From positions 62,001 to 126,000 of the forward strand of contig JAILOG010000001.1 of NCBI GenBank assembly GCA_024690965.1: a DNA stretch of 64,000 nt, written 5' to 3'. A program made the position numbers and the translations under genes. Shown here piece by piece: positions 7,576-24,949 of the stretch. Under the pieces are notes generated by a model. The model saw only the letters and a list, made by a program, of their open reading frames with translations. It was not told the origin of the DNA and made no database searches. Within the stretch, counting starts at the first letter, position 1. Each line of letters begins with the position of its first letter. Origin of the DNA: Clostridiales bacterium. GTDB taxonomy: Bacteria > Bacillota > Clostridia > Oscillospirales > Acutalibacteraceae.

Positions 7576-7673
7576 TATATCACTACCTTTGCTTAATTAT
7601 TCACTACACAGTATAAAGCGGGGAACAAACCGTTTTATAACTACGCCCCCACTATTGTAATAAACTTGGCTAA

Positions 7674-7702
7674 ATTATATCTTAATTCACTGTAAAAATC
7701 AA
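7674..7702 (-). promoter_or_regulatory. sigma-A promoter of the 2135-aa surface protein gene
   Basis: Minus strand: TTGATT (7702-7697), 17-bp spacer, TATAAT (7679-7674), about 100 bp upstream of the start at 7575. The leader between them holds no clear structured element. Confidence 0.65.
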
Positions 7703-7753
7703 TATATTTGCCTAAAAATGTGTTACTTTTACATAAAACTTAAGGGCAAAAGC

Positions 7754-7799
7754 AATTTCCCCCGAAAATCGCGTAAAACAGCGACTTTAAGGGGAAATT
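7754..7799 (-). terminator. Terminator after lysS
   Basis: A long imperfect hairpin: AATTTCCCC (7754-7762) pairs with GGGGAAATT (7791-7799), with an inner stem around ATCGC/GCGA. It lies immediately after the lysS stop on the minus strand and is followed by T-rich sequence. Confidence 0.7.
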
Positions 7800-7802
7800 T
7801 AA

Positions 7803-9308
7803 TTATTTATCTATAGGTTTCATTGTCGGGAACAGCAATACGTCTCTTATAGAAGCGCTGTCGGTGAGCAGCATAACAAGCCTGTCCACACCGAATCCCA
7901 ATCCGCCCGTGGGGGGCATACCATACTCAAGCGCGGTAATATAATCATAGTCAACCTCGGATTTGCAGTCGGGATCCGCGGCTTTCTTTATGGCGACTTG
8001 CTTTTCAAAACGCTCTTTCTGGTCTATCGGGTCGTTAAGCTCGCTGAAAGCGTTACCATACTCCGTAGCGTTAATGAAATACTCAAAGCGCTCAGTAAAC
8101 GCGGGATTATCGGGCTTACGCTTTGCAAGCGGACTGTTTTCAACAGGATAATCGTATATAAACGTGGGCTGAATGAGCTTTTCTTCTACAAATGCGTCAA
8201 ATAACTCCGCAAGCACTGTACCCTTTGTCGCGTCTGCCGCTACGTCTACATTGTGCTCCTTTGCGCATTTGCGCGCGTCTTCATCGGTAGCCCAATCATT
8301 ATAGTCGCAGCCGCTGTACTTCTTCACCGCCTCAACCATTGTAAGACGCTCCCAGTGACCCATATCTATCTCTATTCCCTGATATGTTATGACTGTGCTG
8401 CCGCAAATTTTTTCTGCAAGCGATTTATACAATTCTTCCACAAGGTCCATCATACCGTGAAAATCGGTAAAAGCTTCGTACAGCTCTATTGTTGTGAATT
8501 CGGGATTGTGCTTTGTGTCCATTCCCTCATTTCTGAATATTCTGCCCACCTCATAAACCTTGTGCATACCGCCGACTATGAGCCTTTTGAGGTAAAGCTC
8601 GGTCTCGATACGCAAATACATCTCCATATCAAGAGTATTATGATATGTTTTGAAAGGACGGGCAGACGCGCCTATCTCTATGGGTAAAAGAATCGGGGTA
8701 TCTACCTCCAAATAACCCTTTGAATCAAGATACGCGCGTATTTCACGCAATATTTGTGAGCGTTTTATAAACGTGTCGCGCACCTCGGGGTTAACTATAA
8801 GGTCAACATAACGCTGACGGTAACGGGTATCGGTGTCCTTTAAGCCGTGAAACTTCTCGGGAAGCGGCAACAAAGATTTGGACAAAAGCTCTATATGCTG
8901 TGCGTGTATTGATATCTCACCTGTTTGTGTTTTGAACACAAAACCTTTTACGCCGATTATATCGCCTATATCCCACTTTTTGAACGCTTTATAATCATCT
9001 TCGCCTACATCATCGCGTCTTACATAAAGCTGTATATCCCCTTCTCCGTCACGAAATCCGACAAAGCTTGCCTTACCCATAATTCTTCGACTTATTATTC
9101 TGCCGCCGAGAGAAACTACCTTACCTTCATATTTCTCAAAGTCGGCTTTTATTTCTACGGAAGACGAATCTGTTTCGTATTTTGTTTTCGTAAAAGGGTC
9201 GCAACCCGCTTCTCTTAAAGCCTGAAGCTTGTCTCTGCGAACCTGTAATATCTCGCTTAAATTCTGCTCGCTGTTTTCAAGCTGAGCAATGTTGTTATTT
9301 TCACTCAT
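7803..9308 (-). CDS. lysS: Lysyl-tRNA synthetase, class II
   Basis: Charges tRNA-Lys with lysine in the cytosol. About 501 residues, normal for bacterial LysRS. An N-terminal OB-fold anticodon-binding domain (about 50-165) precedes the class II catalytic core. Motif 1 is at about 190-210 ([13 protein letters not shown]), motif 2 follows [20 protein letters not shown], and motif 3 is near the C-terminus ([13 protein letters not shown]). The ATG at 9308 (MSENNN) is preferred over an upstream ATG at 9344 because AGAGGAC lies just before it and because the longer form would overlap the end of greA. The greA stop is 22 bp upstream and the two share the greA promoter. No T-box or lysine riboswitch is seen. 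Confidence 0.96.
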
Positions 9309-10620: not shown

Positions 10621-11286
10621 TTATTCAATTTTTATTTTATTTACTCGCTCGCATCTTACCGTAACCCGGTACTGTCCACCTATTGTACAGGTGAACAATG
10701 AGAGATCCGCCTGTCCCGAAGTCATTTCTTTAACTTTATCAGGCTCAAGCGTTTCCAATGCAAATACCTTATATTCAAAAACATTGCCGTCCATGTCTAC
10801 AAGGTTTACGGTGTCACCTATAAGCAACGATGTAAGCGCGCCGAAATGCTTTGTGTAGTTGTGCGCGGCTATAACAAGATTGTCTTTATACGCCGAGCCG
10901 CTGTATCTGCATGGGGCGTCTCTTAAATTGTCATAGCTCCATTTGCTCATCACCGGAAGCTCTAACTTAAGCTTTGGTATTTTAATTATAGCAACGTATT
11001 TTTTACCGTCAACACTTTTTTCGGGCATAGGCATATCGGGGTTAAGAAGATAATCGGGGTATTCGGTTCCCGTACCGTCAAAAGCGTCATTTTTTACCAT
11101 GCTGTTATCAAGTAAGTCATACCCCGGTATTTGACCCGACAATGATTTGATCGCATCACTGACATAATCACCTGCGCGGGTGTCGTCGTAAAAATTATAT
11201 ATTGTAAGAGATGCGGCAGATATCAAAAGCAAAACACCTATCGCAACAAAAAATTTGTATAACGCTCTTTTACCTTTGCTTTTCAT
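10621..11286 (-). CDS. Sortase, last gene of the pilus operon
   Basis: 221 residues. An N-terminal membrane anchor (about 9-28) is followed by an extracellular sortase beta-barrel from about 90. The catalytic His lies in VIAAHNYTKHFG, the catalytic Cys in LSLFTCTIGGQYRVTVRCE and the Arg in YRVTVR, matching the TLxTC...R arrangement. It is shorter than the class C enzyme upstream and lacks that enzyme's C-terminal membrane helix, so it may attach finished pili or other LPXTG proteins to the wall. Housekeeping versus pilus-specific use cannot be told from sequence. Its start overlaps the end of the minor pilin gene by 17 bp, indicating translational coupling. Confidence 0.88.
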   Translation of the reverse strand: MKSKGKRALYKFFVAIGVLLLISAASLTIYNFYDDTRAGDYVSDAIKSLSGQIPGYDLLDNSMVKNDAFDGTGTEYPDYLLNPDMPMPEKSVDGKKYVAIIKIPKLKLELPVMSKWSYDNLRDAPCRYSGSAYKDNLVIAAHNYTKHFGALTSLLIGDTVNLVDMDGNVFEYKVFALETLEPDKVKEMTSGQADLSLFTCTIGGQYRVTVRCERVNKIKIE

Positions 11287-12385
11287 TTTTTGTTCCTCTG
11301 CGCTTAATTAACAGACCTATGATCACAAATAACAATCCAAGTGCGATCATCATAGGCACAGGCCACCACAGCACACCTGTTTGAGGCAAACGTTCATTTT
11401 GCGAGTCCGGTGTAACATTATAATTCTTAGGGTCATATGAACTGTCGGTTGAAATTTCACTGTCGGAGTTTACAGGTTTAGAGTCAGTATCTGATGTAAT
11501 TTTACCCTCAGAATCAGTCGGCGCAGTTTTATCGGTATCGGTCTGCGGTTTGTGTCCTTCACCGCGGTAGGTATTTGTAAGCCTGTAAGTATTGCCGAAC
11601 CAGGCTCCCGCCGACATATATCCCTGTATGTCTTCCTCGGCTATTACCCAATTATACCCTCTCGGCAGACGCTCCCATGTGTGCGACCAACGGTTGCTCT
11701 CGCTTAACGTTACGCTGTTATACAGCTTACCGTCACAATATATGGAAACCTTAAGATTCCTTGGCTGCTTTTCGGGATGATCACCGTTATCCCAAACCTT
11801 GAGTACATGTATATCTATATAAGAATCCGAATCCGATGAATCAGTAATCTTTGTTTTCTGAGGTTTTGGATTTGTTGTGATATCGTAATTCCAATCGTAT
11901 TTTTCACTAACACGGTTAGGAAGGCTTACAAGATAAGGTGCGGCAGAGTAATAGTATCCGTCATATTCACTCGGCAAAGTAGCAATAAGATATAACCCCG
12001 ACGCGAGGTTTTGAAATTTGCACCTACCCGAATCATCCGTTACACCCGAATATCCGGGAGAGACACCGTCACGAACAGCGTTTCCGTATAAAATATTGGC
12101 TGCTGACATACGGCTTTCATCGTCCGAACTGTTTATATCCACCGCATAGCCCGCAAACGGACCGCAAAGCTCAAAGTTAGCATCGTCCGTAAACTCAGCT
12201 ACTTTAAAAATATCAAATTTAATTCCGGGCAAATAATTACCGGAATATATATATTCGACCGTCAAAGAGGAATCTTGCTCATGCGGCTTTAAATCTGCGG
12301 CATCAGCAGTTAAATGTACAAACATAAACGAAAAAGCCAAACAAAGGCACAGTAAAACTGCGACTGCTTTTTTATTTACTAACAT
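11270..12385 (-). CDS. Minor (basal) pilin with LPQTG sorting signal
   Basis: 371 residues. Signal peptide 1-30 (ends FVHLTADAAD). The first mature domain (about 40-175) is pilin-like with a SGLYLIATLPSEY strand. A Cna-B/SpaA-type domain (about 190-275) starts IDIHVLKVWDNGDHPEKQP and ends YRLTNTY. A Thr/Ser/Asp-rich linker leads to NERLPQTGVLWW, a hydrophobic helix and a basic tail, which is a classic cell-wall sorting signal. Position between the class C sortase and a second sortase fits the basal pilin that anchors the fibre. RBS AGAGGTGAT lies before the ATG. Confidence 0.88.
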   Translation of the reverse strand: MLVNKKAVAVLLCLCLAFSFMFVHLTADAADLKPHEQDSSLTVEYIYSGNYLPGIKFDIFKVAEFTDDANFELCGPFAGYAVDINSSDDESRMSAANILYGNAVRDGVSPGYSGVTDDSGRCKFQNLASGLYLIATLPSEYDGYYYSAAPYLVSLPNRVSEKYDWNYDITTNPKPQKTKITDSSDSDSYIDIHVLKVWDNGDHPEKQPRNLKVSIYCDGKLYNSVTLSESNRWSHTWERLPRGYNWVIAEEDIQGYMSAGAWFGNTYRLTNTYRGEGHKPQTDTDKTAPTDSEGKITSDTDSKPVNSDSEISTDSSYDPKNYNVTPDSQNERLPQTGVLWWPVPMMIALGLLFVIIGLLIKRRGTKNEKQR

Positions 12386-12425: not shown

Positions 12426-13448
12426 CTAAATAGAATCTTGCTCTTCGTCTGTGTCATTTATACTGTTATTCTTGTTTTTTCTGCTGTTTTTACGTTTCTT
12501 TTTATCCTTTACCTGTTTAAGATTATCGGAATTCAAACCGTAGAGACCAAGCGCTTTACGAGATTCCAAGGCGCGCCGCATTTCTTTCTTTTGGCGTTTG
12601 TCTTTTAATACAACATGGATTAATAACCACAACAATATGGGTATAGCAACTATAGGTGCTATAATCATAGGCTCAATTTGAGTGGCGTCCGCTGTTACGC
12701 GTATATTAGCGGCATTTGCCTCATTTTCTATCCTGTGCCCTCTTACAAGAAGTCTGTGAGTGTTTATTCCGTAAGGCGTACAGGTGAGAAGCGTAACATA
12801 GTCCATACCCGGCACTATTTTAAGGTTTTCTATATCGTCCGGCAATACAATGAGTATTTGATCCACTTCATATGTCAATGTTTCGTCAAGTATTCGTATT
12901 ATAAAAGTATCGTTGACGCTCAGCTTATCAAGATTAGTAAACAGCTTTGCGCTTGGCAGTCCTCTGTGTCCCGACAAAACGCAATGGCTGCTTTCGCCGC
13001 CTACGGGCAATGAGGTCCAGTTTATATGTCCTACTGAATTTTGCAAAACACGGTCCGATGTTCCGTGACATATAGGCAAAGTAACGTCAATAGTCGGTAT
13101 TTCTATATACCCCATTACACCGCCGCCGTCAACGTTAAGCTGTTCCTCATAAATTCCGAGCTGACGGTCGGTGAGAGAAAAAGTTTGATTCTTGCTCAGA
13201 TTAATATTATAATCCAAAGCTTCGGCTAAAATTCTCTCATAATCGGCACCGTCCATTTTCGCCACAACCTCGGCATAGTTGCTTATAACACGGGAAGATC
13301 TGAATGAGTTCCAATAATCGCTTATCGTGGGATACAACATAATTCCCAAGCCTAATATCAAAACGCATATAAGTATTATGGTTGAAGTGTTTTTCTTCTT
13401 TTTGGGTTGTAACGCTTTGTTTTTCTCGTTTTGGGCTACAGATGCCAT
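12426..13448 (-). CDS. srtC: Class C (pilin-polymerising) sortase
   Basis: 340 residues. N-terminal helix at about 23-42 (TSTIILICVLILGLGIMLYP), catalytic domain about 110-235, and a second C-terminal helix (about 255-275) followed by a long Lys-rich tail; two-ended membrane anchoring is typical of class C sortases. The catalytic His is in HCVLSGHRGLPSAKLF, the Cys in VTLLTCTPYGINTHRLLVRG and the Arg within NTHRLL. No obvious DPF/DPW lid motif is seen before the barrel. It would join pilin subunits through lysine and the LPXTG threonine. It follows the backbone pilin gene after a 153-bp gap holding two hairpins. Confidence 0.92.
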   Translation of the reverse strand: MASVAQNEKNKALQPKKKKNTSTIILICVLILGLGIMLYPTISDYWNSFRSSRVISNYAEVVAKMDGADYERILAEALDYNINLSKNQTFSLTDRQLGIYEEQLNVDGGGVMGYIEIPTIDVTLPICHGTSDRVLQNSVGHINWTSLPVGGESSHCVLSGHRGLPSAKLFTNLDKLSVNDTFIIRILDETLTYEVDQILIVLPDDIENLKIVPGMDYVTLLTCTPYGINTHRLLVRGHRIENEANAANIRVTADATQIEPMIIAPIVAIPILLWLLIHVVLKDKRQKKEMRRALESRKALGLYGLNSDNLKQVKDKKKRKNSRKNKNNSINDTDEEQDSI

Positions 13449-13601: not shown

Positions 13602-15161
13602 TTATTTTGTGCCTGCCATTCTCTTTTTGGTGATAAGAAGAACAGCTGCTCCAAGTACCAATATGCCGCCTACAACATAGAAAATAGTTGTACCGATGCC
13701 GCCTGTTGTGGGAAGCTCTGCGCCCTTATGGTTCTGAACTGTTGTTGCAACAACGGGAACAGGTGCTGTTGTTGTAGTTGAAGAACCGCCTGTTACCTCA
13801 GTTTGGGTAACATTACCGTCTGCATCGTAGTAAGTTGTGATAGTTTCTGTATAGGTTGATGTAGACTCAAGTGCTGCTATTATGTCGATCGGGCTTGCAA
13901 GCTTGTTGTACTCTGCGGGAGCCTGTGTTTCTGTGATGGTATATGTACCCGCATCTACACCCTTGATGATGATAAGACCGCTTGCAGGTGAAGTAACGAG
14001 ATTGCTTGTTGAATCAGCGTCATAGTTGTAAACACCTGCGTCTGCAGTTGCTGTTACGTTAACTGCGTTACCGTCTGCATCTTCAACAGAGAAGATTGCG
14101 CCTTCGAGAGCATCGCCGTTCTCGTCAACCTTGAGGATAGCGAGAGCGTATGTGTATGTTACTGTTTCAACGTCGCTTGATTTGTGATATTCTGTATCTG
14201 TTTCTGTTTCTGTGTCGTTTTCTGTTCTGTAATCGATGTTAGCGGTATTCTTGTTACCGTCAGCTGCGATCTCAGCGCTTGTGTTAAGAGTTGCGTCATA
14301 TGTAACTACCAAATCAGAAGGAGAATCATAAAGGAATTGGTTGTTAGCGTCATCATACATATCAATAGTGATCTTAAAGCTGTGGTCGTCTGCAGCGTAT
14401 ACGATAGTATAATCTTCATCTACATCAAGTTCGCTGTCTGCGATATATACTTTGAGTGAGGTTTTGTCATATGTGAGACCTTCGTCGATCGCATCGTTTA
14501 CGAATACTTCTACAACTTTGTCTGTACCGTTGTAGTTAGTTGTTGTGCCCTGAACTTTAAAGCTGATTGTATCACCAAATCTTGCAGAGCTCAAAAGCGT
14601 GTCTGTATCTTCTACAATTGACTTGCCGCCGATAACGGGACCGCCCTGGTTCTTATCGATAACATTAACTGTGGGGTTGTTTGTGTCAAGTGTTACTATT
14701 GAACCAAGTGTAGAAGTGATGTAGTAGTAGCCGAAATCAAGACCGCTGAATGTAACCGTATCGGTTGCTGCTTCTACAGGACCTGCCGCTGCAGTAAGTA
14801 AATCAATAACATTAGCCTTAAGCCAATCAGCAATAACTGCGCCGTCTGTTTCTGTTGTTGTTACGTTGTAAACGTTTGCTGTTGTTGTCGGTGCAAGTGT
14901 AAAAGGACTGCCTGCTGCTGTTAAAGCTGCATAAACAGCGTCACTGTCACCTGTTTTTGTGTAAGTATAAGATACTTTGTCGTGATCGCCTGACTCATAT
15001 GTTGCGTCAAATATTTTGTAAGCAGAATAAGTTTCGCCTACTGTCGCGTTTGTGATAGTGATAGAGCCTGTAGTGGGTTCTTCGGCAGAAGCTGTTATCG
15101 TCATAGCGAAAATGAGCATGGCTGCCATAAGAAGAGCTAAAATTTTCTTTGTTGTTTTCAT
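13602..15161 (-). CDS. Backbone (major) pilin with LPTTG sorting signal
   Basis: 519 residues from the ATG at 15161, which has AAAGGAG nine bases upstream; an ATG two codons earlier is too close to the RBS. Signal peptide 1-27 ends TITASAEEP. The first domain has YSAYKIFDATYE and a SGLDFGYYYITSTLG strand. The middle domain (about 175-320) resembles isopeptide-forming FctA-like domains (VFVNDAIDEGLTYD). A SpaA/Cna-B domain (about 335-430) contains ILKVDENGDALEGAIFSVED and the E-box-like AGTYTITETQAPAEYN. The C-terminus is ELPTTGGIGTTIFYVVGG, a hydrophobic helix and KKRMAGTK. No canonical YPK pilin motif was found. It would polymerise through sortase C. Confidence 0.92.
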   Translation of the reverse strand: MKTTKKILALLMAAMLIFAMTITASAEEPTTGSITITNATVGETYSAYKIFDATYESGDHDKVSYTYTKTGDSDAVYAALTAAGSPFTLAPTTTANVYNVTTTETDGAVIADWLKANVIDLLTAAAGPVEAATDTVTFSGLDFGYYYITSTLGSIVTLDTNNPTVNVIDKNQGGPVIGGKSIVEDTDTLLSSARFGDTISFKVQGTTTNYNGTDKVVEVFVNDAIDEGLTYDKTSLKVYIADSELDVDEDYTIVYAADDHSFKITIDMYDDANNQFLYDSPSDLVVTYDATLNTSAEIAADGNKNTANIDYRTENDTETETDTEYHKSSDVETVTYTYALAILKVDENGDALEGAIFSVEDADGNAVNVTATADAGVYNYDADSTSNLVTSPASGLIIIKGVDAGTYTITETQAPAEYNKLASPIDIIAALESTSTYTETITTYYDADGNVTQTEVTGGSSTTTTAPVPVVATTVQNHKGAELPTTGGIGTTIFYVVGGILVLGAAVLLITKKRMAGTK

Positions 15162-15265
15162 TGTCATTATCTCCTTTACAATAAAATTAATAAAATTATA
15201 TATTTGTTTGTGATATATCGCCACGGCGCAATTTAATATTTCCTTTCGCCGTTTAGAGGGCAGAT

Positions 15266-18200
15266 TTAAAATCTCTCCCTCCTTTCGCATTTGCGCCTCA
15301 GCATATATCCGCACATCAAAGCGGCTGCAATTAAAGCCAATCCGCATAATGTGTAAACCTGTGTGCCAATTCCGCCTGTCATCGGCAGCAATACACCGGA
15401 ACGGTTAATGACCGTCATATTAACAGCGCTGTCGGCATGCACATACTCGCCGCTGAAATCGTCGGGAGTTATAACATTGCCTGTGCTGTCACAGAAAATA
15501 ACGGTTTCGTCCGATACTCTGAAATATATTGAATCTTCGGGCAGCTTATAGCCCGGCAATGAAGATGTTTCAGTAAGGCGGTATAATTTATTTATCTCGA
15601 AATTGGGTATTATTATATATCCGTTAATGTCGGTTATCAAGCCCTGAGAAATATTCTGCCAAGCGTTACCTTCTCTAACGTCTAAGTCAAATTCAACTCC
15701 CGCAAGGCTTTGCTGTGTTAAAACGCCTTCCACTTCTCTTTGAGAGACCTTGTGAAGTCTCACCGTATAAGTAGCGGGGCGCCATTGGGCATAAAGCACG
15801 GTAACATCTTCTGTAAGAGTTATCGGGTTACCCGGGCTGTAGCTTGTACCGGTGCCGTCAGCCATCGTGTTCCAACCGTCAAACATAAAGCCTTCTTTTG
15901 TATAATACTGGCTTTCGTTAGATGTATTATCCCAAACCGCGGCGTTCGCGTAACGGGCATAAACAAAGCCTGTTTCGTTTGGATATTGGGTATCGGGAGT
16001 TCCTCCGTTTGGATCATATTTAAGATAAACGGCGTTCTCCTGACTTACCCACTGCGCTATAAAGGTCATGCCTGGCATCCACTGTGAAAGTATGTGATCT
16101 CCGGGCTGATAAACGTTAGAGTTATTATCAAGCAGCCAGCCGGCGAAAATCTTACCCTGCGTATTTGTAAGATCTGTTAAAGCCTTAACCGGAACACGGG
16201 AAGTACCCAGTGTATATTGGTCATTGTCCACAGGAGCGTTTGCCTGTATACCGCCCTGTGCGACATTAGCGTTATACATAACCCACGGGTTATCGTTAAG
16301 CCACTGTCCGTATACCTTTACTACCCAAACGTATTTGTCGGCAGCTTCGTTATACTCCCATACGCCGTATTCACCGTACATAGGTATGTTAAAGTCAAAT
16401 CTGCTTTCGTAACCGTAGTCACTGTTTGTCCATACCCAATAGTCGGGGGTTACGGCGGCAGGCGGCGAAACATAATCACCGTTGCTGAAATAGTGCCATT
16501 CAACCGGTGTTTCGGAATGCTCGGTAGAATAAAACTCGATAATATTATCTGTTATCCTTTCCCATTTTGCAAAGAGCATTACACTGGTGTTATCTTCAGC
16601 TGTAGCAATCATACTGCTCCAATCGGCATTAGTGTATACCTCACCGTAAGAGTTCATCCATCCTACAAATTTATAACCCGGTCGTGTAAGATATGAGTGC
16701 TGCTCGTTATTAGGCAAGCCGCCCTGATAATCGGCTATGCTTTGACCGTACATTATATTGCTGTAAGATAGTGTATCGTCATGTCCGTCGCCGTCGGCAT
16801 CATACATAAAGTTAAACTGCAACGTCACATCCTTGCGTGGATAGTACAGCAAAAATGCTCTTGACCAGCTTGATGGATTGTATGTTCCGTTGATCTTGTA
16901 GTAATCTTGATATTTAGTAAATAAAGAGTTTACTCTTGTATCGCCGATACTGCTTGTGCCGCCAACGCTGCCGTTGCTAATCGTATACGGCACGGATTGA
17001 CCATCATCGCAGCCAATTATCTGTTTAGCATTCCAACCAGTTGTACTTGTGTACAGCAGAACCTGGCTATAGCTTGTATCAACTTTATACGATTTTCCGC
17101 CAACGGTAAAATCGGGTGTTTCGCCCGGCAGACATTCAAAAGCGTACATCAATGCGTATGTGTTAGTATTGCCAAAACTTGCGGTAAAAGTACAGCCTTG
17201 TGTATTACGCCCGGTTGTGTTTTTTCTGAGATAATTCTCCAACATATTCTTTACACGTGAGCTTTGCTGCACATTGTCTTTATTGGCATTTGAAGAAGTC
17301 CAAACATATATTTTTCCTGTACCTCTTGAAGTAAGCCATGTTTGAAGCGGAAACGCGGTGGTAATATCTTGTTCGTATTTTAGATTTTTCAGCACAAATA
17401 CATTATTTCCGCTTGATGCGTTTGCGGACGCCGCAGTATACTCCCACTCTATGCCGTCGGGTGTAACGCCGGATGCGCTGTAGTTGCCGCTTTGAGTTGC
17501 GGTTGTTGTACCGGGCAGGTCACCATCGCTGTTAAGGGCGTACATATTCATATATCCGCCGCTTGAGCTGTTTGACATATTAAATGTAAGATCTACCCTT
17601 GCCCTCATATAATCAAAGTGAACAATTGAGGTACCGTTGTTCAAAATCGGTTCTTTGCTGTAAGGGTATGTTCCCTGACCGAACACATCTGTCCAATCTG
17701 TAGTATCTGCATCGTTAAACAGGAAATAATCACTGTATACATCGGGTACTGTTGCCTGTGTGATATGATTTTCATCTGTATAAACAGGATACTCTACCCC
17801 ATTTAACTCACTGTAAACGGTATGTGTTGTTCCGTTTGACTTTACTTTTATAACAGATCCTGCCATCGCGTACCAATAGTGATCGCTACCCTGCTTTAAA
17901 TAATCTGCAGTCTCAAATCCGTTATCATCTGGATTCTCAATATGAATAACAGGTGTAAACGGTACGTAAGCAGGCTCCCACTTGGCATAATAGAACTTAT
18001 TCTCAGTTATCGTTTGCACACCGCTTACAGGTTGTGTTAGCTCTGCATCAGTGTACCAACCCTCAAAATGATATCCCGCGCGAACAGGCGTGTAATCATC
18101 AAGGTCAACTGTTTCTCCCGTAATTACATTAATAGGAGGGATACGCTCGCCGTTTGTTACGAATATAACTCTGCAAACGTCGTTTACGCCCGGCCACAGG

Positions 18201-20527
18201 TAGAGGTCACAGGCTACAGAGCCGTCGCCTGTCAAATAATCTGTCATATCGCTTACAGGTGTTGTAAAGTCATACTCTACTGTGCGGTTACTGTCTAAGT
18301 ACCACTTGCCGTTCCATTCCTGACCTGCCGGGGGCTGAATTTGCGGTCTGTACGGGCTCAGCGTTCTGCCTTCACCTATAAGGTATGTTACAAGCACCGT
18401 CTCATAGGAGTTTCCTCTGTCAAAGTCGTAGAAATATACATAGTAGCCTTCGCCTTGATGTCCCCATTTGGCATACAATACCATATCGTTAGTAATAGCT
18501 GCATTTGCGTTAAACGGGGTTGTGCACTCCGCGTCTGTATACCAGCCTTCAAACGGCACGGCAATATTGTAATACTGACCTTTCCAAACAGGTGTTGGCA
18601 CATAATCAAGTGTTTGCCCATACGGTACTAAAACATCTTCCAACGGCTCAATAAAATCATTATATATACCAAGGTTAAACGACACATTTACAGACTGCGC
18701 CCAGTGGGCTGTAAATGTAGTATCCTCGGTTATATTCATATCCGCTATTTCTTCCGCGGTATATACTGTGCTGTCATTATCTTTTGTCCAACCTACAAGT
18801 ACATAGTCCTCTCTGGTCCAGTCAGACGGTACATCGGAAAGCTGTACGCTGCCGCCGCCAATCGGTAATTGTACAGTAACATCATCATGCAACTCGGCGG
18901 AATCTTCAAACGTAACATATACGCCGGGTACACGCTTATATATTACCATATTTCGTCTGCTTGTATTGGTATTAGCGTAGCTTCTGGAGAAGCCATTGTT
19001 ATATATCAAATAATAAGTACGGGTGCTAGACTGCCTGTAACTTAACGTCCAAACTTCTGTTCCGGAATTATAGTTTAACGTGGGACCGGTCGACTGAGAT
19101 GTAGCAATAATGGAGCTGTCAGTAAGTCGTAAATACCGTGTGTTAAAGGCAACATTCTTTATCTTGCTGACTGTGCCCGAAGAAAGAACAGTAGATTCAA
19201 AGTTCCACTGGTACTGCTCATCGTTGGAGTTGCAGGTGAAATAATTGTTAGAGCCAGCTACAGAGGTAAATGTAACTGCCTTAGCCGATGCATTTCCGGC
19301 ATTTTCATTTGCTACACCAATTGCATAACCGCTTTGAGATACTATCATATATGTGGCATTAGTATCATCAATTTGAGTTACCTTTTCCCAATATCCACCT
19401 GAAGCACCTCTTAAGGTAACGCCCAAAACGGCATTTGAATAAATAATATCACTGGTTAAGTTGTCATCACGCGCAAAAGCGTTGGCGGTGTGTGATATAT
19501 CGTGAAGCTCCTCATCGTCGCTTCGAGCTTCTCCCCTGCTTCTCATACCCTTGCTCTTAACGCCGCGCAGGCGGTAATAAGTATTCATAGCCTCGTCGGT
19601 AGCTTCTGTTGAATACTCCAAATAATAAGCATCTTGTATATCTGCCCAATCGGTCGCGCCGTCTGCGGAGCTTTGCCACTGCCAATAATACTTTTCAATA
19701 TCAACAGCGTTTACATCTGCCTTAAGGCAAAGCATACCGTCGCATATTTCCGAATACACTATAACTTCGGCTTGATCATCAATATGTATGACATTTGCAC
19801 TGTCATCGACCTTCGCAAAACCGAGTATCTCGCTGTCACCCAAGTAATACTCTACATAATCGACTTTATTGTTGCAGTCACCCATAACGGCAACGATCTT
19901 TGTAGCGGACTCGCTCTTTATATCGGTAACAACAGCCACATGATTGTCATTTGTGAATAAAAGGTCGCCCTCATTTGGAATATACTCATCAGCACTGTAA
20001 TAACAGTTATACTCTCCTGAGGCAAGCGTCTCTCGCCACTGAGTTACATCTTGAGCGTACGGGAAGTCGTTAACACCGGCATAGTATAAACAGAACGAAG
20101 CAAACATTGCGCTCCAATCAGCGTATTCGTCACCGTACCATGCACCGTAGCGCGTATATCCCTTTGTTATATCTCCGCCTACGACCATGTAGTTCTTATA
20201 GCTTTCGGTGTAACCGAGCTGTGTTTTTGCTATCGACGCGGTATCTTTTCCCTTAAGGCTCAAAAGCTCGGCATTTTGCATAGTTTTCTCCCACTGCGCA
20301 GGCGTTTCAACATCTGCTTCGGGATTTGAATAGCACTGCAAAGTATGCTCATGCTCCAAACCGCAATATGTATCGTTTGTCATTGTTATGGCAGGAAGGA
20401 TAAGCGCATATGTGGTGCAGAATACAACAATTGCGGACAACACACTTACAATTCTGTACCAGCGCTTCTTTCTTTTGTGCTTACTGTTTATTTTTACGGT
20501 TTCCATCAACAATTCTCTCTGCGTCAT
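15266..20527 (-). CDS. Pilus tip adhesin: degenerate CHAP-like domain, B-repeats, LPMTG anchor
   Basis: 1753 residues, start set by AGGAGG and ATG at 20527. A basic N-terminus and long signal/membrane segment (about 24-48, ending YALILPAITMT) lead into a CHAP-like domain (about 95-245). There the position of the catalytic Cys in YADWSAMFASFC reads Ser while NHVAVVTDI keeps a His, so peptidase activity is doubtful. A ricin/RICIN-like beta-trefoil stretch (about 370-530) may follow. Several B-repeats occur at about 545-880 and again at 1280-1640 (e.g. GYKFVGWMN, MLFAKWE), flanking a large domain at about 880-1280. A SpaA-type domain (LAGVEFDLDVREG) precedes LLPMTGGIGTQVY, a hydrophobic helix and RRKCERRERF. 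Largest subunit and first structural gene, as expected of a tip adhesin. Confidence 0.87.
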   Translation of the reverse strand: MTQRELLMETVKINSKHKRKKRWYRIVSVLSAIVVFCTTYALILPAITMTNDTYCGLEHEHTLQCYSNPEADVETPAQWEKTMQNAELLSLKGKDTASIAKTQLGYTESYKNYMVVGGDITKGYTRYGAWYGDEYADWSAMFASFCLYYAGVNDFPYAQDVTQWRETLASGEYNCYYSADEYIPNEGDLLFTNDNHVAVVTDIKSESATKIVAVMGDCNNKVDYVEYYLGDSEILGFAKVDDSANVIHIDDQAEVIVYSEICDGMLCLKADVNAVDIEKYYWQWQSSADGATDWADIQDAYYLEYSTEATDEAMNTYYRLRGVKSKGMRSRGEARSDDEELHDISHTANAFARDDNLTSDIIYSNAVLGVTLRGASGGYWEKVTQIDDTNATYMIVSQSGYAIGVANENAGNASAKAVTFTSVAGSNNYFTCNSNDEQYQWNFESTVLSSGTVSKIKNVAFNTRYLRLTDSSIIATSQSTGPTLNYNSGTEVWTLSYRQSSTRTYYLIYNNGFSRSYANTNTSRRNMVIYKRVPGVYVTFEDSAELHDDVTVQLPIGGGSVQLSDVPSDWTREDYVLVGWTKDNDSTVYTAEEIADMNITEDTTFTAHWAQSVNVSFNLGIYNDFIEPLEDVLVPYGQTLDYVPTPVWKGQYYNIAVPFEGWYTDAECTTPFNANAAITNDMVLYAKWGHQGEGYYVYFYDFDRGNSYETVLVTYLIGEGRTLSPYRPQIQPPAGQEWNGKWYLDSNRTVEYDFTTPVSDMTDYLTGDGSVACDLYLWPGVNDVCRVIFVTNGERIPPINVITGETVDLDDYTPVRAGYHFEGWYTDAELTQPVSGVQTITENKFYYAKWEPAYVPFTPVIHIENPDDNGFETADYLKQGSDHYWYAMAGSVIKVKSNGTTHTVYSELNGVEYPVYTDENHITQATVPDVYSDYFLFNDADTTDWTDVFGQGTYPYSKEPILNNGTSIVHFDYMRARVDLTFNMSNSSSGGYMNMYALNSDGDLPGTTTATQSGNYSASGVTPDGIEWEYTAASANASSGNNVFVLKNLKYEQDITTAFPLQTWLTSRGTGKIYVWTSSNANKDNVQQSSRVKNMLENYLRKNTTGRNTQGCTFTASFGNTNTYALMYAFECLPGETPDFTVGGKSYKVDTSYSQVLLYTSTTGWNAKQIIGCDDGQSVPYTISNGSVGGTSSIGDTRVNSLFTKYQDYYKINGTYNPSSWSRAFLLYYPRKDVTLQFNFMYDADGDGHDDTLSYSNIMYGQSIADYQGGLPNNEQHSYLTRPGYKFVGWMNSYGEVYTNADWSSMIATAEDNTSVMLFAKWERITDNIIEFYSTEHSETPVEWHYFSNGDYVSPPAAVTPDYWVWTNSDYGYESRFDFNIPMYGEYGVWEYNEAADKYVWVVKVYGQWLNDNPWVMYNANVAQGGIQANAPVDNDQYTLGTSRVPVKALTDLTNTQGKIFAGWLLDNNSNVYQPGDHILSQWMPGMTFIAQWVSQENAVYLKYDPNGGTPDTQYPNETGFVYARYANAAVWDNTSNESQYYTKEGFMFDGWNTMADGTGTSYSPGNPITLTEDVTVLYAQWRPATYTVRLHKVSQREVEGVLTQQSLAGVEFDLDVREGNAWQNISQGLITDINGYIIIPNFEINKLYRLTETSSLPGYKLPEDSIYFRVSDETVIFCDSTGNVITPDDFSGEYVHADSAVNMTVINRSGVLLPMTGGIGTQVYTLCGLALIAAALMCGYMLRRKCERRERF

Positions 20528-20566: not shown

Positions 20567-21148
20567 TTATTTTACATTTCCAAAGCTTTTAAAGGGCCAT
20601 ACTCTGAAAACGATTTTTCCTACTATTTGTTCTGTTTCTACGCAGCCGACGGTCGAGCTTCGGCTGTCTATTGATGTGGAACGGTGGTCGCCCATTAAAA
20701 ACCATTTGTTTTCAGGCACCTGATACGGCAGCTCCATATCGCACTCACCTAAAGCCTTTTCAGTCAAATACGGCTCTTTAAGAAGATTTCCGTTAACAAA
20801 AACATCGCCGTCGCTTGTAATATCCACCCAATCACCGGGTCCTGCTATACACCGTTTTACAAGAAGCTTGTTCCCGTAGTAAAAGCCCACTACATCGCCT
20901 GCGTCGAAAGAAGAACCCTTGAGCGAGACAACAATATCCCCGTCTGTAAGCGTAGGAGTCATAGAAGTACCGTATATCTGCAAAACGGGCATCCACAGTG
21001 TTGCAACCAAAACGGCAAATGCCGCCGTAACAACCAAAGCATACACCGTACTTCGTAAAATTCTTCTGTATCTTTTACGGTATTTTTCTCTCTGAAGCTC
21101 TTGCTCTATTTGAGCAGCTTCGGGAAATTCTGGAGTATATTTTTTCAT
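20567..21148 (-). CDS. lepB: Signal peptidase I of the pilus locus
   Basis: 193 residues with one N-terminal transmembrane helix (about 32-52) and an extracellular catalytic domain. Box B has the nucleophile Ser in IYGTSMTPTL, box D the general-base Lys in KLLVKRCIAGPGD, and box E reads FLMGDHRSTSIDSR. It cleaves preproteins after translocation. Pilus loci often carry a dedicated signal peptidase (SipA-like), but those may lack the catalytic pair; here both residues are present, so it should be active. It lies 39 bp upstream of the adhesin gene and after the coiled-coil gene. Confidence 0.93.
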   Translation of the reverse strand: MKKYTPEFPEAAQIEQELQREKYRKRYRRILRSTVYALVVTAAFAVLVATLWMPVLQIYGTSMTPTLTDGDIVVSLKGSSFDAGDVVGFYYGNKLLVKRCIAGPGDWVDITSDGDVFVNGNLLKEPYLTEKALGECDMELPYQVPENKWFLMGDHRSTSIDSRSSTVGCVETEQIVGKIVFRVWPFKSFGNVK

Positions 21149-21195: not shown

Positions 21196-21651
21196 TTAGT
21201 TAAAATCATCTATATCTTCTTCCCGCACCGGCTTGCGATGCACTAATATTCTTCCGTCATTTGTTTTCTGACAAGGCAGAGGAACCGCTTTTTTCAGGGC
21301 GCGGATCTGCGGCGCATTTTGTTCTTTAGGTTTGTTCTCGGTATTGCGGAGGTCAACCACAGGGCTCTCATTTTTGCGTCCATCTGTTTTCTGTTCAAAT
21401 GGCATATCCGCATCGCCTTTGATATTCATAAGATACTGGTCGGCTGCCGCCTGCGCAGCGTTGAAAATATCGTTAATTTTGAGTGCCGCCTCGGCAATTG
21501 AACCTGAATTTTGTATTGCAATCTCCTTTTCGGAGAGTTTTTTTCTTAATTCTTTTATCTCTTTTTCCAAGCTGTCCGCACGTTCGGTCTGAGCCAAAAG
21601 AAGCTCTAAAAGCTCGGTTCTTGTAAGCTTTTTAAGTTCTTTGTTTGTCAC
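21196..21651 (-). CDS. Coiled-coil protein of unknown function, first gene of the pilus operon
   Basis: 151 residues from a GTG at 21651 with GGGAGG upstream; the open frame extends further up but without a ribosome site. Residues 5-45 form a charged coiled coil (ELLELLLAQTERADSLEKEI). A helical segment (about 48-80, INDIFNAAQAAADQYLMNI) follows, then a disordered, polar tail ending KPVREEDIDDFN. No signal peptide or membrane segment, so it is cytosolic. Its place ahead of signal peptidase and pilins suggests a scaffold or assembly/regulatory role, but I do not recognise a characterised family. Confidence 0.75.
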   Translation of the reverse strand: MTNKELKKLTRTELLELLLAQTERADSLEKEIKELRKKLSEKEIAIQNSGSIAEAALKINDIFNAAQAAADQYLMNIKGDADMPFEQKTDGRKNESPVVDLRNTENKPKEQNAPQIRALKKAVPLPCQKTNDGRILVHRKPVREEDIDDFN

Positions 21652-21693
21652 TGATCCACCTCCCTCAAAAACAATACTTTTAGAATTATGATT

Positions 21694-21722
21694 AAGATAA
21701 CAGTTCACAAGAATTGTCGCAA
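21694..21722 (-). promoter_or_regulatory. Possible proximal promoter of the pilus operon
   Basis: Minus strand TTGCGA (21722-21717), 17-bp spacer, TATCTT (21699-21694). It is weaker than the distal repeat-associated promoter, could give basal expression, and lies 42 bp upstream of the GTG. Confidence 0.35.
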
Positions 21723-21876
21723 GCAAACGTAGACTACTGACAAGTCATATATTATGGGCGTCGTATGATTAGCAGTTTTTCAAAATACTGCTTATTTGCA
21801 TAATTATAGCCACAATATACCGTAACATTATTCTTTTTTTCCACTGATAGACCGATTCTCAACTTTTCACTATGGT

Positions 21877-21912
21877 ATAATAACAACACGTGTCCAACAA
21901 ATGTCCAACAAA
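21877..21912 (-). promoter_or_regulatory. Predicted activator-dependent pilus promoter with tandem 11-bp repeats
   Basis: Reading the minus strand, TTTGTTGGACA occurs twice back to back (21912-21902 and 21901-21891), then exactly 8 bp, then TATTAT (21882-21877). There is no proper -35. Direct repeats on an 11-bp period ending 8 bp before the -10 are the known operator layout of SARP-family activators. The same layout stands before the response-regulator gene at 23331-23366. Transcription would leave a leader of about 220 nt before the first pilus gene. Confidence 0.6.
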
Positions 21913-21987
21913 TACTACAATATTTTCGTTTTTATAAAGTTTTTCACAGAGTTAATATACTGGAACAGGATGTTTACATAAATCATC

Positions 21988-22016
21988 TTGTGTCTTACGA
22001 TTATTTGTGTTATACT
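21988..22016 (+). promoter_or_regulatory. sigma-A promoter of the histidine kinase gene
   Basis: TTGTGT, 17-bp spacer, TATACT, 39 bp upstream of the kinase ATG. The stretch between this and the repeats (21913-21987) shows nothing else distinct. Confidence 0.65.
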
Positions 22017-22055
22017 GGCCTTGAAAGGTGAGAAAAGTCAGAAGGGAAAAAATTT

Positions 22056-23312
22056 ATGCAAAGTTTGATAACACAAAATGCTATGGATGCGATAATACCG
22101 CTTATTCTGCAAATGCTTGGTCTGATTCTGGTAACTTTTATTGATCCGTACATAAAAAGAAACAACAGGATAATCATTTTAATAAATTTTGCCCTTATCA
22201 TCACTATAATTATTCAGAATGTGATAGACTCTAACTCGGAGATACCTTTTATAAGAACGCTTTCCTCTATTTACGGCTATTCTGTAAGACCTCTTATTCT
22301 ATTGCTTTTTTGCCTTATTATCAAATCGGAAAGAAACCAGACACCCTTTTGGATATTAATTGGTATCAATACGATTATAAATATGACATCGCTGTTCACT
22401 GATATTTGCTTTGGCATCAGCAATGACAACCATTTTTACCGTGGACCGCTCGCATACAGCAGTCATATATGCAGTGCGATAATGATTGTATATATGATCT
22501 ATTTGACACTTAGCGCAAAAACCGATAAACGGAGATTTCAGGTGATCATCCCGATTTTTAATACGGCGGTGGTTGTTTTTGCTGTTCTGCTTGACACCTT
22601 TATTGTTCAAACAGAAGGAGTCATATCGCTTTTGTCGATAGCCATGGTAATCAGTTGTCCTTTTTACTATATTTGGCTTCATCTTCAGTTTGTACATGAG
22701 CATGAAAAGGCATTCATGGCTGAACAGCGAATACGTATCATAATGTCTCAAATACAGCCGCATTTTTTGTATAACACCCTTTCCTCGATTCAAGCGCTTT
22801 GCCGTATCGACCCGGAACAAGCATTCAACGTTACCGAGAAATTCGGAACATATCTGCGGCAAAATATCGACACACTCGATAAGCCTCAGCTCATCCCTTT
22901 TAAAAATGAGCTGGAGCACACGCAGGTTTATTGCGAAATTGAGATGATACGATTTCCGACTGTCAGCGTAAAATATGATACGCGTGACACTGATTTTTTA
23001 GTTCCTGCGCTGACAGTGCAGCCGCTTATGGAAAACGCAATACGCCACGGAGTACGTATCCGCGAGAAAGGACTTGTTACAGTTTCTACAAGAAAAATTG
23101 AAGGTTATCACGAAATCGTCATACATGATAACGGCAAAGGATTTGATGTAAATCAGAAACACAGTCCGGACGAAAAACATATAGGAATACATAACGTGCG
23201 TGAAAGAATTGAGAAAATGTGCGGCGGTACTTTAACTATTGACAGCATTATTGGCGAAGGAACTACAGTTACAATTCTCATTCCTGTTAAAAAAGACAGG
23301 AAGAAGAAATAG
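22056..23312 (+). CDS. Membrane sensor histidine kinase (LytS/YesM type)
   Basis: 418 residues. Six or so transmembrane helices fill residues 1-210 with no large extracellular loop, so the sensed signal is probably in or near the membrane. The His_kinase dimerisation region has the phosphorylated His in SQIQPHFLYNTLSSIQALC at about 230-250. The HATPase domain follows, with NAIRHGVR (N box), HDNGKGFD (G1) and GEGTTVTILIP (G2). Start ATG has AGAAGGGA upstream. It should phosphorylate the response regulator encoded 271 bp downstream, and is divergent from the pilus operon, its likely target. Confidence 0.92.
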   Translation: MQSLITQNAMDAIIPLILQMLGLILVTFIDPYIKRNNRIIILINFALIITIIIQNVIDSNSEIPFIRTLSSIYGYSVRPLILLLFCLIIKSERNQTPFWILIGINTIINMTSLFTDICFGISNDNHFYRGPLAYSSHICSAIMIVYMIYLTLSAKTDKRRFQVIIPIFNTAVVVFAVLLDTFIVQTEGVISLLSIAMVISCPFYYIWLHLQFVHEHEKAFMAEQRIRIIMSQIQPHFLYNTLSSIQALCRIDPEQAFNVTEKFGTYLRQNIDTLDKPQLIPFKNELEHTQVYCEIEMIRFPTVSVKYDTRDTDFLVPALTVQPLMENAIRHGVRIREKGLVTVSTRKIEGYHEIVIHDNGKGFDVNQKHSPDEKHIGIHNVRERIEKMCGGTLTIDSIIGEGTTVTILIPVKKDRKKK

Positions 23313-23330
23313 TCGTTTGTTTTCGCAGGA

Positions 23331-23366
23331 TTTGCCGGACATTTGTTAGACATAAGTTTGTATGAT
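23331..23366 (+). promoter_or_regulatory. Predicted autoregulatory promoter with 11-bp repeats before the response regulator
   Basis: TTTGCCGGACA (23331-23341) and TTTGTTAGACA (23342-23352) are in tandem, followed by 8 bp and TATGAT (23361-23366). Unit sequence, period and 8-bp gap match the pilus-side element at 21877-21912. Further TTAGACA-like half sites lie at 23400-23406 and in inverted form near 23430. The rest of this 255-bp gap shows no ORF. Confidence 0.55.
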
Positions 23367-23583
23367 TTAGGGTAAAAACAAATTAGTCAATGAAGAAAAT
23401 TAGACAAAATCTTATTTATATCAAAGAATTTGTCTGTAATGGACGAAAGCAAAAAAACTTGGTCCCCGTTTGTAAAACTTTTAGCCTTTGCGAGAAGTAA
23501 TGAATGTGCCGACAAATTCGGAAATTGCAAAACGCTTTTCTTCGCGTTAAACAATAATTCAAGAAGGAGTGCAAGGTAAAGTT

Positions 23584-24402
23584 ATGAAAATTATTTGTGT
23601 TGATGACGAACCTCTCATTCTGAAAATGACAACAGACCTTTGTCGGGAGCTACCGCAAAAGCCGGAAGTCTACGGATTTTCAAGCGCAACAGACGCACTT
23701 TTGTGGCTTGAGAATAATAATTGCGATATTGCGCTTCTTGATATTAATATGCCTGATATGAGCGGAATTACGCTTGCCGAAATTATCAAAAATAAGCATC
23801 CTTATACGGCAATAATTTTCTTAACCGGGTATTCAGAATATGCGTTGGATGCCTTTAAACTCCATGCGTCGGGGTATCTTTTAAAGCCCGTAAACAAGCA
23901 GCGCCTCACTGAGGAAATCAACTACGCCGTAAGCTTGCGCGGTCCTCAAGCAACTTTGTCGAATAAAGGCGTACACATTTCGGCGCGCACTTTCGGGGAA
24001 TTTGATCTTTTTGCGGATGGACAAGTCGTCTCTTTCCCCCGTTCCAAATCAAAAGAGCTTTTGGCATATCTTATTGACAGGCAAGGCGGAAGCGTTACAA
24101 GGGCGGCGGCATTTTCCGCGCTATATGAGGACGCTGCATATGACCGTTCCATGCAAAAACAGTTTGATGTAATCATAAGGTCACTGCGATCCGCTTTAAA
24201 AAATGTCGGTGCAGAAGACATCTTTGAAATAAAGCAAGCCACTATGCGTGTTTATCCGGAAAAAATTGATTGTGACTTGTATCGCTTTTTAAACGGCGAT
24301 ACTTTCACTATTAACAGTTACCGCGGCGAATATATGAGTGCCTATTCCTGGGCGGATATGACCGAGGCTTTTTTAGACAGACTGTATAATAGGATGATGT
24401 AA
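23584..24402 (+). CDS. Response regulator with SARP-like DNA-binding domain
   Basis: 273 residues from the ATG at 23584 (an in-frame GTG at 23569 overlaps the purine-rich site and is less likely). The receiver domain covers 1-120: acidic pair in IICVDDEPL, phospho-Asp in CDIALLDINMPDMSG, Thr in IIFLTGYSEY and Lys in GYLLKPVNK. Residues about 135-235 form an OmpR/SARP-type winged helix (FGEFDLFADGQVVSFPRSKS, then FDVIIRSLRSALKNVG). The end, YRGEYMSAYSWADMTEAFLD, looks like only the beginning of a BTAD domain, so this is a short SARP. It is likely activated by the kinase upstream and likely binds the 11-bp repeats at 21891-21912 and 23331-23352. Confidence 0.88.
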   Translation: MKIICVDDEPLILKMTTDLCRELPQKPEVYGFSSATDALLWLENNNCDIALLDINMPDMSGITLAEIIKNKHPYTAIIFLTGYSEYALDAFKLHASGYLLKPVNKQRLTEEINYAVSLRGPQATLSNKGVHISARTFGEFDLFADGQVVSFPRSKSKELLAYLIDRQGGSVTRAAAFSALYEDAAYDRSMQKQFDVIIRSLRSALKNVGAEDIFEIKQATMRVYPEKIDCDLYRFLNGDTFTINSYRGEYMSAYSWADMTEAFLDRLYNRMM

Positions 24403-24658: not shown

Positions 24659-24664
24659 CACCTA

Positions 24665-24949
24665 AATCGTTGATTAAGGGGTAGTAACCGGATCTGCAGA
24701 AGCAAAGAGAGCCGCAGGCGCTGGGATTGCGGCGTGATGTAACCGGCGAATGGCCTTATGAGAGCAGGAGGAACGGGTCTGTATTCTCGCCTTAGTAATA
24801 CCTGACGGAAAAGCTTTATTCCGTACTAACAAAAAGCCGTTTTAAAACGCAGAGCGGATGCCTGAATAAGTCAGGCGTCAATTTGGGTGGCACCGCAGAA
24901 GCTTACGCTTTTGTCCCATGTTATTATGGGATAAGAGCGATTTTTTATA
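24665..24949 (+). promoter_or_regulatory. Tryptophan T-box riboswitch
   Basis: A leader of about 285 nt before trpB. It has the stem I landmarks (GTAGTA near the start, an AGAGAG-type loop region at about 24706 and a GCGAA-TGG specifier loop with the Trp codon TGG at 24751-24753). The conserved T-box (TTTGGGTGGCACCGCAG, 24881-24897) precedes a terminator hairpin, about 14 bp with arms near 24906-24919 and 24926-24939, followed by a T-run. Uncharged tRNA-Trp should pair with the specifier and the T-box bulge and allow read-through into trpB when tryptophan is scarce. Confidence 0.88.

Follow-up and report, generated by a model that had tools for sequence, protein, structure and literature searches.

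Gene content and promoters of the locus

The window, that is, the whole 64,000-nucleotide stretch of Clostridiales DNA that was analysed, encodes on its plus strand a membrane sensor histidine kinase of the LytS type (22056-23312; His_kinase PF06580 and HATPase_c PF02518) and a response regulator (23584-24402) consisting of a LytR-like receiver (residues about 1-118) and a SARP-like winged helix with a truncated BTAD (residues about 131-272). Two operators accompany this gene pair. Operator 1, two tandem copies of TTTGTTGGACA on the minus strand (21912-21891, reading TTTGTTGGACATTTGTTGGACA), faces a seven-gene sortase-pilus operon and is separated by an 8 bp spacer, CGTGTTGT, from the -10 element TATTAT (21877-21882, minus strand), which has an extended -10 TGT directly upstream. 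Operator 2 is composed of TTTGCCGGACA followed by TTTGTTAGACA on the plus strand (23331-23352, reading TTTGCCGGACATTTGTTAGACA) and faces the response regulator gene, with the 8 bp spacer TAAGTTTG between it and the -10 element TATGAT (23361-23366, plus strand). These two promoters had been proposed in a first-pass annotation as repeats, 8 bp and TATTAT or TATGAT, and both letters and coordinates proved exact. A search for two tandem copies of TTTGNNNGACA with at most two mismatches returned exactly two matches in the window, namely operators 1 and 2; shuffled windows gave a mean of 0.08 matches to the same tandem pattern, and none of 100 shuffles reached two. Within the 1.9-Mb genome the two operators are likewise the only close matches. 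A third genomic match was rejected: it carries two mismatches, lies inside a coding gene and is without a correctly placed -10.

The operon behind operator 1 lies on the minus strand and begins with a small coiled-coil-like protein of unknown function (21196-21651) that has no Pfam or NCBIfam match. Translation of this gene likely starts at a GTG at 21651, preceded by GGAGG, which would leave a 5' leader of roughly 220 nt, although the choice of start is inferred. The predicted leader (21652-21870, minus strand) has no Rfam match and could hold further control. There follow a signal peptidase I (20567-21148; PF10502, TIGR02227); a giant 1753-aa surface protein with profile matches to Flg_new repeats and a SpaA domain (15266-20527), likely the tip pilin or adhesin; a major pilin with GramPos_pilinBB and SpaA matches and an LPXTG anchor (13602-15347); a class C, pilin-polymerising sortase (12426-13448; NF033745, 270 bits); a second pilin-like protein matching Cna_B (11270-12385); and a second sortase (10621-11286; TIGR01076). 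The presence of a class C sortase, an LPXTG major pilin and accessory pilins satisfies the definition of a sortase-assembled pilus operon. No RNA family reached the Rfam gathering threshold in the non-coding stretches flanking the kinase and regulator genes. Further along the plus strand, a T-box leader (24661-24921; RF00230, E 9.8e-19, its 83.2 bits falling slightly short of the gathering score) stands upstream of an apparent TrpB-like gene at 24918.

Predicted structure of the regulator output domain

Profile searches place the receiver of the regulator (PF00072, above cut-off; Pfam residues 3-112) in front of its DNA-binding domain, so that the N-terminal position of the DNA-binding domain that characterises a SARP is not met. 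The receiver is closest to those of S. aureus LytR, BtsR and MrkE rather than to that of PhoB. The DNA-binding domain itself was matched only by Trans_reg_C (PF00486), weakly and below cut-off in the window protein, and this was the sole Pfam family found on the output domain in 33 of 34 members; a LytTR DNA-binding domain was not detected in the regulator by profile search. Behind the wing lie about 40 residues that resemble the start of a BTAD, and as Pfam gives no BTAD match the domain is considered truncated, and the protein SARP-like rather than a canonical SARP.

Given that a full-length model is dominated by matches to REC-wHTH proteins of the OmpR type, the output domain was modelled without the receiver, with 34 aligned output domains as the input to AlphaFold2. 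The resulting model has a pLDDT of 95.5, and a Foldseek search with it ranked AfsR and EmbR first. VIA-align superposed EmbR and AfsR on the output domain with Z scores of 13.9-14.7, pairing 137-139 of 142 residues and taking in the helices that follow the wing, whereas PhoB was aligned with a Z score of 10.1 over 93 residues, covering the winged helix only. The regulator therefore conforms to one description of the OmpR/PhoB family, a receiver joined to a Trans_reg_C winged helix, but not to another, in which the domain ends at the winged helix and the closest structures are PhoB-like. On the strength of the predicted fold, this is a LytS/LytR-type pair that carries a SARP-like output domain. 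The first-pass annotation had described a SARP-type two-component system; the likeness of the output domain to SARPs is upheld at the level of modelled structure, the protein is not canonical since a receiver stands in front and most of the BTAD is missing, and the two-component type can be refined, the receiver and kinase being LytR/LytS-like. Ownership of the operators by a paralogue was rejected, the output domain having no second copy in the window genome.

Conservation of the promoters and co-occurrence with the regulator

Named genome contigs were scanned for orthologues of the regulator, which were found at 80 loci with 51-94% identity; almost all of these loci come from assemblies of rumen and gut Clostridia. 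The tandem repeat was found at 119 sites in 68 of these loci when at least 17 of 22 matches were required, compared with no sites in shuffled sequence and one for the reversed motif; the remaining 12 loci (about 15%) have no site at this threshold. SARPs follow a published rule in which direct repeats recur with an 11-bp period, the last repeat lies 8 bp from the -10 and the first lies over the -35 (PMC4393881, PMC10936776). The units of the Clostridia sites are spaced by 11 bp in 94 of 104 close pairs and by 22 bp in three, in agreement with the SARP period. A TATAAT-like hexamer (at least five of six bases) begins at offset +8 in 72 of the 119 sites and in no more than 14 of 119 at any other offset between 0 and 25; TATTAT and TATGAT of the window both obey this +8 rule, and together the offset peak and the two window sites fulfil the SARP arrangement of 8 bp to the -10 with the upstream repeat over the -35. 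The match to SARP geometry holds within the uncertainty of how the repeat units are framed. The extended -10 position is enriched in T and G, no -35 was seen in the 119 family sites apart from the repeats themselves, both repeat units are equally conserved, and a start codon follows most sites at a distance of less than 110 bp. The expectation of the first-pass annotation that the repeats would recur near orthologous kinase and regulator genes was thus met in dozens of genomes, the 11-bp period and the 8-bp distance being unchanged. Three loci apparently have three tandem 11-bp units instead of two (L073:842-874, L077:8407-8439 and L107:9063-9095).

Both repeats of the window are retained in the sister species (L066/L146), to which the intergenic region holding the predicted pilus-operon leader aligns at about 91% identity. 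In L066, operator 1 and its -10, with the extended element, are exactly conserved. Operator 2 is present with one change, but the TATGAT facing the response regulator gene is not kept: a stretch of about 190 bp just past the operator 2 spacer (window 23362-23556), which carries this -10, is missing from L066. The possibility that these 190 bp ahead of the regulator gene are a mobile repeat was rejected, as no second genomic copy exists. Given that the -10 facing the regulator gene is not conserved, autoregulation in the window genus, which is read from sequence alone, is less certain than control of the pilus, and in the sister species it is doubtful.

The full pattern of repeat, N8 and -10 was recovered from 48 of the 50 genomes known to encode the regulator, and in many of these it recurs several times (1-13), while the reversed pattern has no match in these 50 genomes. 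The two regulator genomes without the pattern (G086 and G098) carry a variant repeat, TTTGTTATACA. For comparison, 391 genomes were drawn across the class, 390 of them excluding the window's own; these represent a class background in which the regulator was not scored throughout and are not proven to be regulator-free. Only six of the 390 match, all at the limit of three mismatches and about as frequently as the reversed control, and no close orthologue of the output domain was found among these six. The attribution of the repeats to the regulator is supported in that the sites are confined to regulator-holding genomes (48/50 versus 6/390 at control level), in the absence of any binding data.

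Covariation of operators and recognition helices

Operators in which GG is replaced by AT (TTTGTTATACA) occur in L098, L118 and L124, the regulators of which carry Q193S, D195N and R199H or Y; the recognition helix reads KSFNVIVH/Y in L118 and L124 and NSFNVIVH in L098, versus KQFDVIIR in the others. Operators with T5 replaced by A (TTTGATGGACA) occur in L085, L100, L110 and L136, together with Q193Y in the regulator, and L130 combines Y193, S195 and N199 with the operator TTTGTTGTACT/A. Operator variants thus appear to track changes in the recognition helix. Nevertheless, the S193 set (TTTGTTATACA) forms one clade and the origin of the Q193Y set is unresolved on the tree; with so few independent events, the covariation is taken as supporting evidence and not as proof. 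These natural variants, with matched changes in operator and recognition helix, make specificity directly testable.

Proposed promoter activation and alternative explanations

The operators, their conservation and spacing, the geometry of their -10 elements, their occurrence alongside the regulator and the fold predicted for its output domain are established here. It is suggested that the LytS-type membrane kinase, in response to an inferred signal, would phosphorylate the LytR-like receiver of a regulator with a SARP-like winged helix and a vestigial BTAD, and that regulators seated at the operators would recruit and position RNA polymerase in the fashion of SARPs; binding, its dependence on phosphorylation and the contacts with polymerase are all inferred. 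In the window genus such a system would activate the sortase-pilus operon and probably also its own regulator gene. That activation, rather than repression, takes place is also an inference, for which the strict distance to the -10 speaks, as expected of contact with polymerase. Activation of promoters with SARP geometry by a LytS/LytR-type pair with a SARP-like output is very probable, and the explanation as a whole, including the pilus operon and, probably, the regulator gene as targets, is held with high confidence, although neither binding nor transcript data are available for either.

PhoB-type regulators likewise bind tandem 11-bp repeats that replace the -35. It is therefore possible that this is an ordinary OmpR/PhoB-family system, with a pho-box-like operator in place of the -35, and that the likeness to SARPs merely reflects the winged helix shared with OmpR. 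The Pfam assignment of the output domain to Trans_reg_C alone and the REC-wHTH order, which is that of OmpR and PhoB, are consistent with such a system, as are the tandem 11-bp repeats of PhoB boxes, and for this last reason it is the comparison of folds and not the spacing of the repeats that favours a SARP. However, this explanation is unlikely, given that EmbR and AfsR match nearly the entire output domain with Z scores of about 14 and PhoB reaches only about 10 over 93 residues, that the receiver is nearest to LytR, BtsR and MrkE and not to PhoB, and that the published SARP rule prescribes this 8-bp distance to the -10 (PMC4393881, PMC10936776).

The operators overlap the core promoter, which raises the possibility that the regulator-bound repeats serve as a repressor or silencer site; this is more improbable still, since a repressor has no need of the strict 8-bp distance that is the sharpest feature of the family, and the lack of a -35 is a trait of activator-dependent promoters. 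Finally, the repeats occupy the -35 position, and TGGACA in the distal unit of the window, 19 bp before the -10, resembles a -35 element, so that they might represent an unrelated conserved promoter type, for example that of an alternative sigma factor, found near the kinase and regulator genes by chance. Very little speaks for such a coincidence: the sites are restricted to regulator-bearing genomes and cluster around the gene of the regulator, they change together with its recognition helix, and their two units are conserved to an equal degree.

Activation in the manner of SARPs, which remains the preferred reading, is known mainly from actinomycete antibiotic clusters. The Clostridia output domain shares its fold, over nearly the full length, with SARPs of the AfsR, ActII-ORF4 and OtcR type and with mycobacterial EmbR, and its sites share with those of SARPs the 11-bp direct repeats, the 8 bp from the last repeat to the -10 and the upstream repeat in place of the -35. 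It differs from SARPs in being a two-component output behind a receiver, in possessing only the start of a BTAD, in the DNA motif of its sites and in being linked to surface proteins and a pilus. AfsR binds DNA as a side-by-side dimer and provides a new docking place for sigma region 4 (PMC10936776). With OmpR/PhoB response regulators the Clostridia protein has in common the receiver and winged helix and a tandem operator replacing the -35, but it has extra post-wing helices matching the start of a BTAD, a LytR-like receiver and a LytS-type kinase. The kinase class (PF06580) and the receiver are those of LytS/LytR (LytTR) systems, in which respect the difference lies in the output, which is SARP-like and not a LytTR DNA-binding domain. 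The order REC-wHTH-BTAD start is also that of COG3947, which we take to comprise the 'SAPR' response regulators (REC, wHTH and BTAD); a full-text literature search found no characterised binding site or regulon for COG3947. The open-licence literature yielded nothing relevant on Firmicutes or Clostridium response regulators of the SARP type, or on such control of a pilus in Clostridia, and earlier work may exist elsewhere.

Predicted targets across the family

Among the first genes behind the sites, the kinase and regulator genes excluded, a crude test finds 46 of 65 to encode a protein with a hydrophobic segment at its N-terminus. The target types include choline-binding, FIVAR, BspA-type LRR, dockerin and DUF3592 proteins, and further targets are a dicarboxylate symporter, SpoIIE phosphatases and STAS proteins. 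The nearest clade keeps the site that points away from the kinase but has different genes behind it: in the window and L066 this is the pilus operon; in L075-type loci, a 361-aa protein together with a giant adhesin of the Cna_B kind; and in L068 and L069, a STAS protein and an ABC-type ATPase. Pilus control as a family-wide rule was therefore rejected. The control of a pilus envisaged in the first-pass annotation is predicted to apply in the window genus, but elsewhere the same promoter position serves other, mostly exported proteins. The giant protein at the position of the pilus operon in L075 (565-7293, minus strand) has 2243 aa with three Cna_B domains and FctA, and relatives of this locus, L077-L079, also have a giant protein there.

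What is seen is a family, found across Clostridia of rumen and gut, whose promoter signature is conserved and of which the pilus of the window is one target, and this is larger than the idea from which the analysis set out. It is probable, with less assurance than for the locus itself, that these loci form a widespread and undescribed Clostridia class of LytS/LytR-type pairs that have gained a SARP-like output, placing activation in the SARP mode under a phosphorelay, directing it to pili, giant adhesins and exported proteins, and leaving a readable helix-to-operator code. SARP geometry and a SARP-like output fold in two-component systems of Clostridia from gut and rumen would widen the range of the mechanism, and the 36-bp promoter signature makes the regulons of uncultured species directly readable. 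To our knowledge almost no regulators of surface pili or adhesins have been identified in these bacteria, for which a candidate is now supplied.

In Lachnospiraceae bacterium XBB2008 (L097/G085), a named isolate, there are seven predicted promoters, each before a gene; one of them precedes the gene of a regulator-related protein that consists of a receiver alone. In L119, labelled as Erysipelotrichaceae, genes for a double-glycine-type leader peptide, a GH3-family enzyme and an NRPS-like protein (AMP-binding, PP-binding and Condensation) at 6475-6744, 6948-8621 and 17557-20484, all on the minus strand, lie behind family operators, and it is possible that a SARP-like regulator controls a natural product here, outside the actinomycetes.
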